The position numbers were made by a program, and so were the translations under genes. The notes under the pieces were generated by a model, which saw only the letters and a list, made by a program, of their open reading frames with translations, was not told the DNA's origin and made no database searches. DNA of 64,000 bases from Lysobacterales bacterium. GTDB taxonomy: Bacteria > Pseudomonadota > Gammaproteobacteria > Xanthomonadales > SZUA-38. The stretch lies in assembly GCA_028285525.1 (NCBI GenBank), contig JANQOZ010000024.1:1-64000 (forward strand), in the 5' to 3' direction. Shown here one piece after another: positions 1,371 to 20,204 of this stretch; position 1 is the stretch's first letter, and every line of letters begins with the position of its first letter.

Positions 1371-2342
1371 CTATTGGTTGAGCTCAGTGTAAAAGACCAT
1401 CGCCTGGTAAGCCACAAATGCCGCCAGCAGAACCGCGCCGGAAACGCGGGAGATCCGCCCGGGCCCCCTGAAGCCGTAGGCCATCAGGAACAGCATCAGC
1501 GACAGGCCTAGCATGATGGTGTAGTCGCGATACAGGAGGGTCTTGTCGACCGGGGTCGGCTCGATGCTCGCGGCAATACCGAGCACGCCGAGCAGATTGA
1601 ACATGTTGGAGCCGATGATGTTGCCGATCACCAGCTCATACTCACGCTTCAGCACGCTGGCGATGGCGGCGGCGAGCTCCGGCAGGCTGGTGCCGATCGC
1701 CACGATCGTGAGACCGATCACCACATCCGAAACGCCCATGATTCGGGCGATGTCGGTAGCGCCCAGAACCAGAATGTGGGAGCTCGCGGGCAGTACGATC
1801 ATGCCCAGCATCAGCCAGCCGAGGGCGACGGGCGTGGACATATCGGACGGGATCTCGGTCGCAAACTCCGCAGCGATTGGGTCGGGGCCGCTGCGCTGCA
1901 TGCCGATGGCGGCCATCCAGGTGGTCATCAGCAGCAGACCGAATAACAGGATGGCGCCGTCGATCCGCCCGAGGCTCTGATCCAGCATCAGGACCAGGGC
2001 GAGCACCGACACCACCAGCAGGATCGGGTATTCACGGCGCAGCGTGTCGGAGTGAATCTGCAGCGGGTAGATGCTGGCCGCGACGCCCAGGATCAGCGCG
2101 ATGTTGGCGATGTTGGATCCGACCGCGTTGCCGACCGCCAGCCCCGGGTTACCGCGAAGCGCCGCAACCCCGGAGACCACCATTTCCGGGGCCGAGGTGC
2201 CGAAGCCGATCACCGTCAGGCCGATGATCAGCGGCGACACGCCAAGGTTCCGCGCGGTGGCTGCGGCCCCCGCCACGAACCGGTCAGCGCCCCATACGAG
2301 GAACACAAAACCGATGGCGATGAGTCCTAGCGAGAGCAGCAT
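1371..2342 (-). CDS. yrbG: Calcium/sodium antiporter, CaCA family (YrbG-like)
   Basis: 323 aa inner-membrane protein with about ten hydrophobic segments. Both alpha repeats typical of CaCA exchangers are visible: GFGTSAPE with GNAVGSNIAN in the first half (about residues 47-80) and AIGTSLPE with GNIIGSNMFN in the second (about 215-250). The length matches E. coli YrbG (about 325 aa). It lies upstream of kdsD in the same orientation, as in the E. coli yrb locus. The transported ion is family inference and was not tested. Confidence 0.9.
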   Translation of the reverse strand: MLLSLGLIAIGFVFLVWGADRFVAGAAATARNLGVSPLIIGLTVIGFGTSAPEMVVSGVAALRGNPGLAVGNAVGSNIANIALILGVAASIYPLQIHSDTLRREYPILLVVSVLALVLMLDQSLGRIDGAILLFGLLLMTTWMAAIGMQRSGPDPIAAEFATEIPSDMSTPVALGWLMLGMIVLPASSHILVLGATDIARIMGVSDVVIGLTIVAIGTSLPELAAAIASVLKREYELVIGNIIGSNMFNLLGVLGIAASIEPTPVDKTLLYRDYTIMLGLSLMLFLMAYGFRGPGRISRVSGAVLLAAFVAYQAMVFYTELNQ

Positions 2343-2459
2343 AGCCGTGAAGCAGGGTTATCCATCAAGGTGAATCCGGGTCTCTTATTATTTTGTGCAG
2401 CGCCGCGCCGCCGCGCATCCTGCCCAGCGCCGGTACGGTTTCGGTAGTGCCAGATTTCC

Positions 2460-2465
2460 TATAAC
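2460..2465 (+). promoter_or_regulatory. Possible -10 element for ibaG-murA
   Basis: TATAAC lies in the 248-bp region between the divergent antiporter and ibaG genes. No -35 hexamer at the standard spacing is convincing (TTTCGG sits 15 bp upstream), so this is a weak call. The rest of the gap shows no gene. Confidence 0.3.
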
Positions 2466-2590
2466 ATCGCCCGCCTCAACCCACCGATCGGGTGGCGACG
2501 GACGGGCCGGCACAGGTTCTTAGGCGCCACTATCGATCGCGGCAACCCGCGGCTCATAACCAGCGGACAACGGGCAAGGGGCGAAAGTCT

Positions 2591-4106
<1,516 letters not shown>

Positions 4107-14524: not shown

Positions 14525-14986
14525 ATGCTTCGTATCAGTAAGCTCACCGACTACGCGATCGTCGTGACCGCCGCGATGGCCGGTGACCCAAAGCGCATCT
14601 TCAGCGCAGCGGAGCTGTCCTCGGAAACGCATCTTGAGCCGCCCACGGTAGCCAAGGTGCTGAAGATGCTCACGCGAAGCGATCTTGTTCAGTCCTTTCG
14701 CGGCGCCAGCGGCGGGTACCGGCTGGCACGAACACCGGCCGACATCACGGTCGCGCAGCTCATCGTGGCGATGGAAGGTCCGATCGGCATGACGCAGTGC
14801 AGCGTTCACCAGGGCCTTTGCTCAACCGAAGCGGTTTGCGCGCTGCGCGGACACTGGCAGCAGATTTCTCGAGCCGTTCACGCGGCGCTGAGTGAAATGA
14901 CGCTCCTGGACATGACGCGCCCGACGATCACACACACGCTAGTGCCGGAGCTCAAGCTCCATAACCAAACCACGGAATCGCCCTGA
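14525..14986 (+). CDS. SUF system Rrf2-family transcriptional regulator
   Basis: 153 aa. The N-terminal winged helix (MLRISKLTDYAIVV, then PPTVAKVLKML and FRGASGGYRLA) is typical of Rrf2/IscR. Cys92, Cys99 and Cys105 (C-x6-C-x5-C) match the Fe-S ligand cysteines of IscR. This suggests it senses cluster supply and regulates the suf genes it heads. Its stop codon directly abuts the sufB ATG (TGAATG). Confidence 0.92.
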   Translation: MLRISKLTDYAIVVTAAMAGDPKRIFSAAELSSETHLEPPTVAKVLKMLTRSDLVQSFRGASGGYRLARTPADITVAQLIVAMEGPIGMTQCSVHQGLCSTEAVCALRGHWQQISRAVHAALSEMTLLDMTRPTITHTLVPELKLHNQTTESP

Positions 14987-16432
14987 ATGGCCACCGAAAA
15001 TCAGCACATCAAGGAACTGGTAAAGCGCCGCTACGAACCCGGCTTCTTCACCGATATCGAAAGCGACACCATCGCCCCCGGCCTGTCCGAGGACGTCGTG
15101 CGGTTCATCTCGGAAAAGAAGAACGAGCCGGGCTGGATGACCGAGTGGCGCCTGAAGGCGTTTGCGCTGTGGCAGAACATGCCGACCCCAAAGTGGGCGC
15201 ACGTGCACTACCCGGAGATCGATTTTCAGGCCATCTCTTACTACTCAGCGCCAAAGTCGGGCGCCAAATACGAGAGCTGGGACGAGGTGGATCCGAAGCT
15301 GATCGAAACCTACGACAAGCTGGGCGTGCCGCTGCACGAGCGGGCCCGGCTGGCCGGCGTGGCGGTCGACGCGGTGTTTGACTCGGTATCTGTCGGGACC
15401 ACCTTCCGAAAGGAGCTGGCCGAAGCGGGCGTCATTTTCTGCTCGATGTCCGAGGCCATCCAGGACCATCCTGAGCTGGTGCGCAAATATCTCGGCAGCG
15501 TCGTGCCCCAGGGCGACAACTTTTACGCGGCGCTCAACTCGGCGGTTTTCTCTGACGGCTCGTTTGTCCTGATTCCCAAAGGCGTCCGCTGCCCGATGGA
15601 GCTCAGCACCTACTTCCGGATCAACGAACTGAACACCGGCCAGTTCGAGCGCACGTTGATCATCGCGGAAGAGGACAGCCACGTCAGCTACCTGGAGGGC
15701 TGCACCGCGCCGATGCGCGATGAGAACCAGCTTCATGCGGCGGTGGTGGAGCTGGTCGCGCTCGATCGTGCACAGATCAAGTACTCCACGGTCCAGAACT
15801 GGTACCCGGGAGACGAGCACGGCAAAGGCGGGATCTACAACTTCGTGACCAAGCGCGGCGACTGCCGCGGCGAGCGCTCCAAAATTTCCTGGACGCAGGT
15901 CGAGACCGGTTCAGCCGTGACGTGGAAATATCCGAGCTGCATCTTGCGGGGCGACCACTCCTCGGGTGAGTTCTACTCCGTGGCGCTGACCCACAACTTT
16001 CAGCAGGCCGACACGGGCACCAAGATGGTTCACCTGGGCAAGAACACTCGCAGCCACATCATTTCCAAGGGTATTTCGGCTGGCCGGGGCCAGAACGCCT
16101 ATCGCGGGCTGGTGCAGGTCAACAAGAAAGCCGACAACGCGCGTAACTTCACGCAGTGTGACTCGCTGCTGATCGGCGACCGCTGCGGGGCCCACACATT
16201 TCCCTATATCGAAGCCAAGAACGCGACGGCCCAGATCGAGCACGAGGCCAGCACGTCCAAGATCAGCGATGACCAGCTTTTTTACTGCCTGCAGCGCGGG
16301 ATCAGCGAAGAAGACGCGGTGTCGATGATCGTCGACGGCTTCTGCAAAGAGGTCTTTAAAGAGCTGCCGATGGAGTTTGCGGTGGAGGCGAAAAAACTGC
16401 TGGAAGTCAGCCTGGAAGGAGCGGTCGGATGA
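14987..16432 (+). CDS. sufB: Fe-S cluster assembly protein SufB
   Basis: 481 aa, the usual size. The SufB/SufD beta-helix core is evident, with [14 protein letters not shown], the [14 protein letters not shown] turn and [17 protein letters not shown] near the C-terminus. SufB is the scaffold subunit of the SufBC2D complex on which clusters form in the cytoplasm. It is first structural gene of sufBCDSU and overlaps sufC by 4 bp. Confidence 0.97.
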
Positions 16433-17193
16433 CCCAGAACATTCTCGAAATCAAAGACCTTCATGCGAGCGTTGAAGGCAAGCAGATTCTCAAAGGGCTC
16501 ACGCTGACGGTGGCGCCGGGTGAGGTTGCCGCGATCATGGGCCCGAACGGCGCCGGCAAGAGCACGCTGGCCAACGTCCTGGCCGGTCGCCCCGGCTATA
16601 CGGTGGACAGCGGCTCGGTGTCTTATCTCGGTCAGGACCTGCTGGCGCTGGAGGCCGACGAGCGGGCCTGTGCCGGGGTGTTCCTCGCATTCCAGTATCC
16701 GGTCGAGATTCCGGGGGTGAACAACACCTACTTCCTCCGCGCTGCCCTGAATGCTCAGCGCCGCTCCCGCGACGAGGAGGAGCTCGACTCGATGGCTTTT
16801 CTCAAGCTGGTGCGCGCTCGACTCAAGGCGCTGCATATCACCGACGACCTGCTGCACCGAGCGGTCAATGAAGGCTTTTCCGGCGGGGAGAAAAAGCGCA
16901 ACGAGGTGTTTCAGATGGCGGTGCTGGAGCCCCGGCTGGCCATCCTTGACGAAACCGATTCCGGCCTCGATATCGACGCGCTGAAAATTGTGGCCGACGG
17001 CGTCAATGAGCTTCGCAGCAGCGAGCGGGGCTTTGTGGTCGTCACCCACTACCAGCGGCTGCTGGACCACATCGTGCCCGACACCGTGCATGTGCTCATG
17101 GATGGCCGGATCGTGAAGTCGGGGACCAGCGACCTGGCGCTGCGCCTGGAGAAAGAGGGCTACGCCTGGATCCAGGAGGAGCTCGCGGCGTGA
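16429..17193 (+). CDS. sufC: Fe-S cluster assembly ATPase SufC
   Basis: 254 aa ABC-type ATPase. Walker A is GPNGAGKST (about residues 38-46), the signature is [10 protein letters not shown], Walker B is [12 protein letters not shown], and the H-loop is VVTHYQR. These are all SufC hallmarks. It powers rearrangement of SufBC2D. It overlaps sufB and sufD by 4 bp each, implying coupled translation. Confidence 0.97.
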
Positions 17194-18509
17194 GCCTGAT
17201 CGAAGCACTGCTCAGTACCGCTCCGGATGCCACCGCGGGTTGGTGGCAGCCGTCGCGCGAGGCTCATCGGGTCATCGTCGAGCGCCACGGCCTGCCGGAC
17301 CGCCGGCAGGAGAACTGGAAGTACACGGCGCTGCGGCCGATCGAAGGTCACCGGTACCAGGCTCCCGAACAGGGGGTGCTGCAGCCGGAGGATCTCGCTG
17401 AGCTACTCGACGCAAACGGGGTGCCTCAGCTGACGGGCAGCCGAATAACCTTTGTGAACGGCCACTACGCGCCGGCGCTGTCCCATGTTGACGACGTAGC
17501 CGGACTGAAGGTGCGGGCCTTGAGTCAGCTGGGCGACGCGGAGGCGGCCAGCGCCTCAGCGGAGCTTGCCACCGAGTTTTCCCGGCCGGACGAAGGATTT
17601 GCAGCGCTCAACACGCTGCTCGCATCCGACGGCGTCCTGCTGGAGTTCAGCGGGACCACACATGCTGACGGTCAGGACATGGCCACGGCCCCGGTCGTGG
17701 AGCTGCTGTTTGTGGACGTGCCTGGCGCTACGCCCGCGGCCACGGCGGTCAGAAACATCATCAAGATCGGGCCCGGCGCGTCGCTCTCGCTGCTGGAGCG
17801 CTACGTCAGCGCCGGAGAGGGTGTGGCGCTGATCAACAGTTTGAGTCAGGTGGAGCTGGAGGCTAAGAGCCGGCTGAGCCACGTGCGTCTGCCGCTGCTC
17901 GGCGAGGAGCGCTCGCTGATCTCGCGGCTTGATGTACGTCTGGGCGAGGGAAGCGACTATCGCTGCTTTGGGCTCGACCTCAGCGGCACGCTGGTTCGCC
18001 ACGATCTCAACGTGGCCATGGTTGGGCGGGACGCCCAGGCGTCACTCAACGGTGTTTACGCCCCGCGCGGCAAGACCCATATCGACAACCACGTGGCCGT
18101 CGACCACCGTGTCCCGGATGCCGTGAGCAGTCAGGCGTTCAAGGGCGTGCTCAGCGAGCGCAGCCGGGGGGTCTTCAACGGCAAGGTGGTGGTGCAGGAG
18201 GGCGCAGACGGTACCGACGCCAGCCAGTCCAACGCGAATCTACTGCTGTCTCCAGACGCTGAGATCGACACCAAGCCGGAGCTCGAAATCTATGCGGACG
18301 ACGTCAAGTGTGCCCACGGCACCACCGTCGGAGCGCTGTCGGGCGATCAGCTCTTCTACCTCACCGCGCGCGGCATTCCGGAGGTGGAAGCCCGGCGGAT
18401 GCTGACCACCGGCTTTTGTCGCGAAGTGCTGGAAGGGATTCCGGTTGAATCCGTCCGGGATCACGCCATATCGTTGCTCACAGATCATTTGCAGGACATC
18501 CAGGCATGA
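17190..18509 (+). CDS. sufD: Fe-S cluster assembly protein SufD
   Basis: 439 aa from GTG 17190, which overlaps the sufC stop. The N-terminal RRQENWKYTALR motif is characteristic. The C-terminal half has the SufB/D beta-helix with VHNG-like FNGKVVVQEGADGTDASQSN, then CAHGTTVGALSGDQLFYL, typical of SufD. It partners SufB and SufC. It overlaps sufS by 4 bp. Confidence 0.96.
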   Translation: MSLIEALLSTAPDATAGWWQPSREAHRVIVERHGLPDRRQENWKYTALRPIEGHRYQAPEQGVLQPEDLAELLDANGVPQLTGSRITFVNGHYAPALSHVDDVAGLKVRALSQLGDAEAASASAELATEFSRPDEGFAALNTLLASDGVLLEFSGTTHADGQDMATAPVVELLFVDVPGATPAATAVRNIIKIGPGASLSLLERYVSAGEGVALINSLSQVELEAKSRLSHVRLPLLGEERSLISRLDVRLGEGSDYRCFGLDLSGTLVRHDLNVAMVGRDAQASLNGVYAPRGKTHIDNHVAVDHRVPDAVSSQAFKGVLSERSRGVFNGKVVVQEGADGTDASQSNANLLLSPDAEIDTKPELEIYADDVKCAHGTTVGALSGDQLFYLTARGIPEVEARRMLTTGFCREVLEGIPVESVRDHAISLLTDHLQDIQA

Positions 18510-19756
18510 GCGCAGTTATTGCAGTGGAAAATCATTCACCGCTGAACGTGGAGGAAATCCGTAAGGACTTCCCCATACTCTCTCGAGAAATTCATGGTAA
18601 ACCGCTGATTTACTTTGATAATGCAGCTTCCGCGCAGCGGCCGTCGGCGGTGATCGACGCCACGCACGACTTCTACAGCCGGCGCAACGCCAATATTCAC
18701 CGAGGCGTTCACACGCTGGCTGAGGAGGCCACTGCGCTCTACGAGCAAGCGCGCCAGACGATGGCCCGCTTTATCAACGCGCCGAGCGACCGCAACGTGG
18801 TGTTTCTGCGCGGCGTCACCGAAGGCGTGAACCTCGTCAGTCAGGCGTTTGTGCGTCCGCGGGTCAAGCCTGGCGATCAGATCCTGGTCACCCATCTCGA
18901 ACACCACTCCAACATCGTCCCGTGGCAGCTCCTCGCCAAGCAGACGGGCGTGGAGCTCAAGGTGGTGCCGATGACCCAGGCGGGGGAGCTCGACATGGAC
19001 GCCTTCCACGGCATGCTGAACGAACGGGTGAAGCTGCTGGGTGTGGTCCACGTATCCAACGCGCTGGGGACCATCAACCCGGTCGCGGACATGGTTAAGG
19101 CTGCTCGCGAGTTCGACATCCCGGTGCTGGTAGACGGTGCCCAGGCAACGCCGCACATGGCGGTGGACGTTCAGGCGTTCGACTGCGACTTCTACTGCGT
19201 TTCCGGTCACAAGATGTATGGCCCGACCGGCGCCGGCATTCTCTACGGCAAATCTCGCTGGCTGGAGGAGATGGAGCCGTATCACGGCGGGGGCGAGATG
19301 ATTAAGCACGTGACTTTCGAGGAAAGCGTGTTCAACGAGCCGCCGGCAAAGTTTGAGGCCGGCACGCCGAACATCGCTGGCGGTATCGGGCTTGGCGCTT
19401 CCGCCCGCTACCTGCTGGACGTTGGCCTGGACCGGATTCGCGAGTACGAAGCCGGTCTGCTCGCCTACGCCACGGAGGCCGTTCAGCAGGTTGAGGGGCT
19501 GAGGATCATCGGGACCGCCCGCGACAAGGCGAGCGTGATTTCCTTCACGCTGGAAGGCATTCATCCGCACGATCTCGGCACCATTCTCGATCATTCCGGC
19601 GTGGCGATCCGCACTGGCCACCATTGTGCGATGCCGATCATGCAGTTCTTCGAGGTGCCGGCCACCTCCCGCATGTCGCTGGCGATGTACAACACCCGCG
19701 ATGAGGTTGATCAATTTGTAGCGGCGCTGAACAAGGCGAGAGACATTCTCGCCTGA
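18506..19756 (+). CDS. sufS: Cysteine desulfurase SufS
   Basis: 416 aa PLP enzyme of the type II desulfurase group. The PLP lysine is Lys236 in SGHKMYGPTG. The persulfide cysteine is Cys374 in RTGHHCAMP. His134 is in the THLEHHSN motif. It mobilises sulfur from cysteine for SufBCD. It sits 4 bp before the SufU-like gene, its expected sulfur-transfer partner. Confidence 0.96.
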   Translation: MSAVIAVENHSPLNVEEIRKDFPILSREIHGKPLIYFDNAASAQRPSAVIDATHDFYSRRNANIHRGVHTLAEEATALYEQARQTMARFINAPSDRNVVFLRGVTEGVNLVSQAFVRPRVKPGDQILVTHLEHHSNIVPWQLLAKQTGVELKVVPMTQAGELDMDAFHGMLNERVKLLGVVHVSNALGTINPVADMVKAAREFDIPVLVDGAQATPHMAVDVQAFDCDFYCVSGHKMYGPTGAGILYGKSRWLEEMEPYHGGGEMIKHVTFEESVFNEPPAKFEAGTPNIAGGIGLGASARYLLDVGLDRIREYEAGLLAYATEAVQQVEGLRIIGTARDKASVISFTLEGIHPHDLGTILDHSGVAIRTGHHCAMPIMQFFEVPATSRMSLAMYNTRDEVDQFVAALNKARDILA

Positions 19757-19760
19757 CGCC

Positions 19761-20204
19761 ATGTCGCTGCAAGACCTCTACCGCACGGCGGTGATCGAGC
19801 ACAACAAGAACCCGCGGAATTTCCTCGAGCTGGAGAACCCCAGCCATCAGTCGCGTGGTCTCAACGCTCTGTGCGGCGACGACATCCGCGTCTACCTGTC
19901 AGTCGACGAGGACAGGATTCAGTCCGCCAGCTTTCTGGGCCAGGCCAGCGCCATCACCATGGCGTCCGCATCGATGATGACCGTGCAGATCGCGCGTCTC
20001 ACGGTGGGCGAAGCCCTGCAAACCTGCGACCGCCTCGACCAGCTTCTTCAGGGGGAAGCTGATGAGGCGCTGCGGGAAGCGCTCGGCGAGCTTTGTGCGC
20101 TGGAGGGCGTGCGCCAATATCCGTCGCGGATCAAGGCGGCTCGCCTGCCCTGGCAGGCGATGAAGGCGGCGCTGAACGAACAGCAGATCGCCAGCACGGA
20201 GTAG
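19761..20204 (+). CDS. sufU: SufU/NifU-N-like Fe-S scaffold protein with missing ligand cysteines
   Basis: 147 aa with the U-type scaffold fold: LYRTAVIEHNKNPRNF, LCGDD and MASASMMTV. The first family cysteine and following Asp (Cys38, LCGDD) are kept. At the second position, where the family has Gly-x-Gly-Cys before the SxASASMM helix, this protein reads GQASAIT. At the third, where the family has VKCATLAW, it reads IKAARLPW. Two of the three zinc/cluster ligands therefore appear lost. The DNA was re-read at both places and the frame is intact. It may be a non-metal partner of SufS rather than a scaffold (inference). No sufE or sufT follows. Confidence 0.85.
   Translation: MSLQDLYRTAVIEHNKNPRNFLELENPSHQSRGLNALCGDDIRVYLSVDEDRIQSASFLGQASAITMASASMMTVQIARLTVGEALQTCDRLDQLLQGEADEALREALGELCALEGVRQYPSRIKAARLPWQAMKAALNEQQIASTE

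Follow-up and report, generated by a model that had tools for sequence, protein, structure and literature searches.

A SUF operon of a Lysobacterales bacterium ends in a gene for a SufU homolog that has lost two of the three cysteines of the zinc site and has kept the one that accepts sulfur in its relatives. The gene lies in the window analyzed here, a stretch of 64,000 nucleotides (positions 1 to 64,000 of contig JANQOZ010000024.1). Our preferred reading, held with moderate confidence, is that the protein descends from SufU, that its zinc site has been dismantled, and that it probably still acts as a sulfur acceptor in the manner of SufE, beside a SufE encoded in the same genome. More tentatively, we propose that a whole clade of SufU proteins in this order has turned into single-cysteine transpersulfurases that do without zinc and converge on the mechanism of SufE, with the matching histidine of SufS lost in two families and the stages of the change surviving in living species. 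The operon runs from an Rrf2-type regulator through sufB, sufC, sufD, and sufS to the sufU homolog, as follows.

14525..14986, + strand: Rrf2-family SUF regulator (TIGR02944, 149 bits, cut-off 110.65)
14987..16432, + strand: sufB (NF008773, TIGR01980)
16429..17193, + strand: sufC (TIGR01978)
17190..18509, + strand: sufD (TIGR01981)
18506..19756, + strand: sufS (TIGR01979, 576 bits), with the catalytic cysteine in RTGHHC and a histidine at the SufU-type specificity position (HPHD)
19761..20204, + strand: SufU homolog gene without two zinc-ligand cysteines, 147 amino acids (TIGR01994, PF01592)

The open reading frame is complete and starts 4 bases past the sufS stop codon, in line with a preliminary description of this DNA that had called the gene intact and placed right behind sufS. 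The same position directly behind sufS was found in every examined genome of the window's family. Loss of the SufS catalytic cysteine, suspected from an ATSRMS stretch, was ruled out by its presence in RTGHHC. This SufS (18506-19756) also scored 629.9 bits against the model for family 2A encapsulin cargo desulfurases, below the cut-off of 800, compared with 576 bits against the SufS model, which is probably mere desulfurase-domain homology.

With 120.5 bits, the window protein clears the cut-off (92.5) of TIGR01994, the NCBIfam equivalog model for SufU, and a Pfam scan returned PF01592 (NifU_N) alone (63.7 bits). It aligns over nearly its full length with the solved SufU-type proteins 2qq4, 5xt5/1xjs, 1su0, and 9dcl. 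AlphaFold2, run on a 51-row alignment, predicted a SufU fold (pLDDT 94.2, pTM 0.89) whose nearest solved structures are the SufU-type protein of T. thermophilus (Z 24.2) and SufU of B. subtilis (Z 23.2). Alignment to the solved SufU structures (1xjs/5xt5) places the B. subtilis ligands C41, D43, C66, and C128 at C38, D40, S63, and A126 of the window protein, which bears out the earlier claim that two of the three ligand cysteines are lost and Cys38 is kept. The relevant codons are listed here.

19872..19874, + strand: Cys38, counterpart of Cys41, which accepts sulfur in B. subtilis SufU
19878..19880, + strand: Asp40, counterpart of zinc ligand Asp43 in the alignment to 1xjs/5xt5
19947..19949, + strand: Ser63, in place of zinc ligand Cys66, which aligns with the S of GQA-S-AIT
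20127..20129, + strand: Arg123, the arginine of the SufU PxRxK motif and putative SufS-docking residue
20136..20138, + strand: Ala126, in place of zinc ligand Cys128

The four-ligand set of zinc-dependent SufU (Cys, Asp, Cys, Cys) is incomplete in this protein. Between S63 and A126 lie 62 residues with no large gap relative to B. subtilis SufU, and the protein carries the SufU-type insertion as well as Lys125 where IscU has a histidine. Judged by its sequence, the protein descends from SufU but is not a SufU of the zinc type. The protein ends in IASTE (20187-20201), a tail that the predicted model shows as a short strand; a tail of the form (A/V)-S-T-E occurs in 46/70 SufU proteins of the class and is missing from the CDCN and CDST types described below.

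How widespread is this state? We surveyed 151 genomes of the order, with a SufU match in 95 and SufE in 142, and recorded, for the SufU genes fetched, which residue stands at each of the four ligand positions; 91 order sequences made up the tree set once duplicates and partial rows had been dropped. Thirty-one of these were canonical (CDCC), 58 lacked the third cysteine (C128), and 2 were diverged (CSCS). The types lacking C128 were CDCS (26 sequences), CDCN (20), CDST (6), CDSA (2), CDGA (2), CDSS (1), and CESA (1), so that Ser, Asn, Ala, or Thr replaces the third cysteine in 58/91 order sequences. CDCS was found in families f6, f8, and part of f7, CDCN in f9, and CDST and CDGA in f11. The second cysteine was also lost in 12 of the 58, the window's family (f1) among them, and SufU of a congener (88% identity) has the same doubly depleted state. 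In the rest of the class, 69/70 fetched SufU genes were CDCC, the lowest-scoring ones included, and one was CSCS. Because this state is fixed in the congener and related states occur in 58/91 sequences of the order, compared with 69/70 canonical ones elsewhere in the class, it cannot be put down to chance. We saw ligand loss in this order alone, and almost all of its genomes have SufE (142/151). The preliminary description had allowed that this might be the common form of a subfamily with known function; the form is indeed common in this order, but within a limited library we found no described function for it and no literature on SufU proteins without zinc ligands or on this clade.

In the full tree, the 58 sequences without C128 group together (support 94/92), and nested among them is a group (support 98/87) made up of the 12 that also lack C66, from f1 and f11. 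A single origin for each loss, which this nesting would imply, did not hold in a quick tree built without the ligand columns and with rows from the class included, where two changes are needed for C128 and three for C66; firm branches of the quick tree force only one change for each. Read from these trees, the loss of zinc ligands is old and stepwise and took place once or a few times, and its rough order is third ligand first, second later.

Some SufU genes of the order lie outside the suf operon, with no common gene neighborhood seen among them. Several f7 genomes have such a gene with all four ligands. One of these four-ligand proteins (L034, 1471-1908) is flanked by moaC with a ThiF/MoeB-like gene and, on its other side, by moaA, in a genome whose SufS has Asn at the specificity position, and may serve sulfur supply to the molybdenum cofactor. 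The gene next after a CDCS sufU outside the operon (L016, about 1446-3048) looks like one for a rhodanese-type sulfurtransferase. Scattered genomes (L095, L098, and L267) encode a diverged NifU_N protein whose pattern is C-S-C-S (CGS for CGD), in G103 in addition to an operon SufU; these proteins are possibly a separate subfamily.

We then consider the sulfur carriers available to SufS. The genome that contains the window encodes one NifU_N-type protein (the SufU homolog itself), one SufS-type cysteine desulfurase, and one SufE, which is intact, adjoins cysS, and has the active site YGCQSQVWL (PF02657, 156 bits); no IscS scored above the model cut-off. This answers the earlier suggestion that the genome be searched for sufE, iscU, or a second sufU, and it leaves SufS with two candidate sulfur acceptors. 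SufU and SufE are said normally to exclude each other. SufE accompanies SufU in 8/111 SufU genomes of the class sample outside the order compared with 86/95 within it (Fisher p about 2e-37, a value that ignores the relatedness of the genomes), so the exclusion holds in the class sample and is reversed in the order. Canonical SufU and SufE occur together in 32 genomes of the order, and the presence of SufE alone therefore does not force ligand loss.

The main alternative, which we regard as less likely, is that SufE does all the transfer and the SufU homolog is an accessory that binds SufS, as a regulator or active-site chaperone, and has lost sulfur carriage. The intact SufE of this genome could perform all transfer, SufE suffices in the 56/56 SufU-less genomes of the order, and the putative SufS-docking residue Arg123 is retained. 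However, Cys38, which would not be needed for binding alone, is invariant in 58/58 degenerate homologs, and at least one near-complete genome with a degenerate SufU has no SufE match. That genome, G030 (99% complete, CDST), is the cleanest of nine in the order that lack SufE. None of the 151 genomes lacks both proteins, and all 9 without SufE have SufU, degenerate in 6 of them; that SufU would be present in all 9 by chance has a probability of ~0.016 (95/151 to the ninth power), a comparison confounded by the draft state of the SufE-less assemblies, some of which are fragmented. Four f11 members (L078, L087, L075, and L093, from G065, G030, G058, and G072) carry a CDST SufU outside the operon, and 3/4 of these genomes have no SufE match.

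A second alternative is that the SufU homolog, redundant with SufE, is a relic on its way to loss. SufU is missing from 56/151 genomes of the order, including several whose families also have members with SufU, and the ligand sites disappear stepwise, as a decaying gene would predict. We nevertheless consider this improbable given the selection acting on the gene. Compared with the congener, dN is 0.077 and dS is 1.13, a dN/dS of 0.068 that indicates strong purifying selection and is no outlier among the values for the rest of the suf genes (0.012-0.107). The gene has no frameshifts or stops, and Cys38, Gly39, and Arg123 are unchanged in 58/58 homologs without C128.

The preliminary description had also suggested that the remaining cysteines take over as ligands, and had named an alignment placing them at the ligand positions as grounds for giving up the idea of ligand loss. 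Neither was borne out: C89 and C112 do not coincide with any ligand position and are not conserved, being His and Ala in a protein of the same family (L028), with Cys in 11 and 3 of 102 alignment rows, respectively, which speaks against them as substitute ligands. Across the doubly depleted clade, Cys38 is the sole conserved cysteine, and the only candidates enriched there are Asp at position 45, Cys at position 89 (half of the rows), and acidic C-terminal residues. It is equally improbable that the protein still holds a metal or cluster, for example one that bridges two subunits through the Cys38 and Asp40 of each, or one bound with help from Ser63, Cys89, or Cys112: Cys38 and Asp40 are retained, the congener has Cys89 and Cys112, and half of the clade has Cys at 89, but no replacement His or Cys or other ligand residue has been gained by the clade as a whole.

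SufS itself bears on the use of zinc. In zinc-dependent pairs, a histidine in the HXXD motif of SufS replaces the acceptor cysteine on the metal, and E. coli SufS, which is partnered by SufE, has Tyr at this specificity position (PMC11408855, PMC10216065). The zinc-swapping histidine is retained in the window SufS. In f9, SufS has Asn in 19/20 CDCN genomes and His in 4/4 CDCC genomes; in f11, it has Thr in 6/6 CDST genomes and His in the single CDGA genome typed. These residues suggest that f9-CDCN and f11-CDST have given up the zinc swap on the SufU side and on the SufS side. Joint loss of the SufS histidine and the SufU zinc ligands is not a strict rule, however: it fails in f1, f6, and f8, and also in some f7 genomes, where SufS has Asn and a CDCC SufU is sited outside the operon. 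SufS of SufU-less genomes in the order has His, Thr, or Gln. Since the window SufS, and often that of SufU-less relatives, keeps the histidine, this residue tracks zinc use uncleanly.

For the zinc-free acceptor that we favor, we infer SufS binding, the absence of zinc, persulfide transfer, and a division of labor with SufE. A persulfide would form on the catalytic cysteine of SufS, and the SufU homolog would dock through Arg123 onto the Asp of the HXXD helix; an arginine of SufU forms a salt bridge with this Asp (PMC11408855), and Arg123 is presumably the same residue. Sulfur would then pass to the lone conserved Cys38, as it does in SufE on its own single cysteine. With no zinc ion holding Cys38, the exchange of ligands with the histidine of SufS would not take place, and the protein would work beside the SufE of the genome. 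Plausibly, SufE made zinc-dependent transfer dispensable, and the site would have eroded as a result, third ligand and then second. The preliminary description had proposed a variant SUF system in which this protein acts with SufS without metal. The invariance of Cys38 and of the putative docking residue Arg123, purifying selection, and adjacency to sufS all fit that proposal, but the intact SufE could serve in its place. Moreover, zinc matters for sulfur transfer in SufU of B. subtilis and M. tuberculosis (PMC10216065, PMC11408855), and a zinc-free SufU may therefore not work.

The window protein resembles SufU of B. subtilis and M. tuberculosis (5xt5, 6jzw, and 8odq) in fold (Z 20-23, 29-38% identity), in its place behind sufS, and in its acceptor cysteine, CGD aspartate, PxRxK motif, and spacing between the second and third sites. 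It differs from them in having Ser and Ala as its second and third ligand residues, so that the zinc site and ligand swap known from SufU cannot form as described, and in sharing its genome with SufE. With SufE and CsdE it shares the overall fold (Z 7-9 against the model, with SufE structures at Z 8-9), one conserved acceptor cysteine, probably the lack of a conserved metal site, and SufS as presumed partner; unlike them, it has no PF02657 match and is of SufU/IscU descent, the true SufE being separate in the genome. The superfamily and the CGD motif are shared with the IscU and NifU N-terminal scaffolds, whereas the protein lacks two of the three cysteines and the histidine of IscU, has the SufU-type insertion, and scores 28.3 bits against the IscU model TIGR01999 (cut-off 192.4), with the NifU model also far below its cut-off. 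With the order's other SufU proteins without C128 it shares a tree group and the retained Cys38, Gly39, and Arg123; unlike it, most of these keep the cysteine at the C66 position, and the f9-CDCN and f11-CDST genomes have lost the SufS histidine that its own genome keeps. The clade appears to break two described rules, that SufU depends on zinc for caging and releasing the cysteine that accepts sulfur and that SufU and SufE are mutually exclusive, and a SufU annotation by itself is no proof of a zinc protein. Because intermediates with all ligands, one lost, and two lost are at hand, the purpose of the zinc becomes testable, and the clade allows one to test how one sulfur carrier adopts the mechanism of another.
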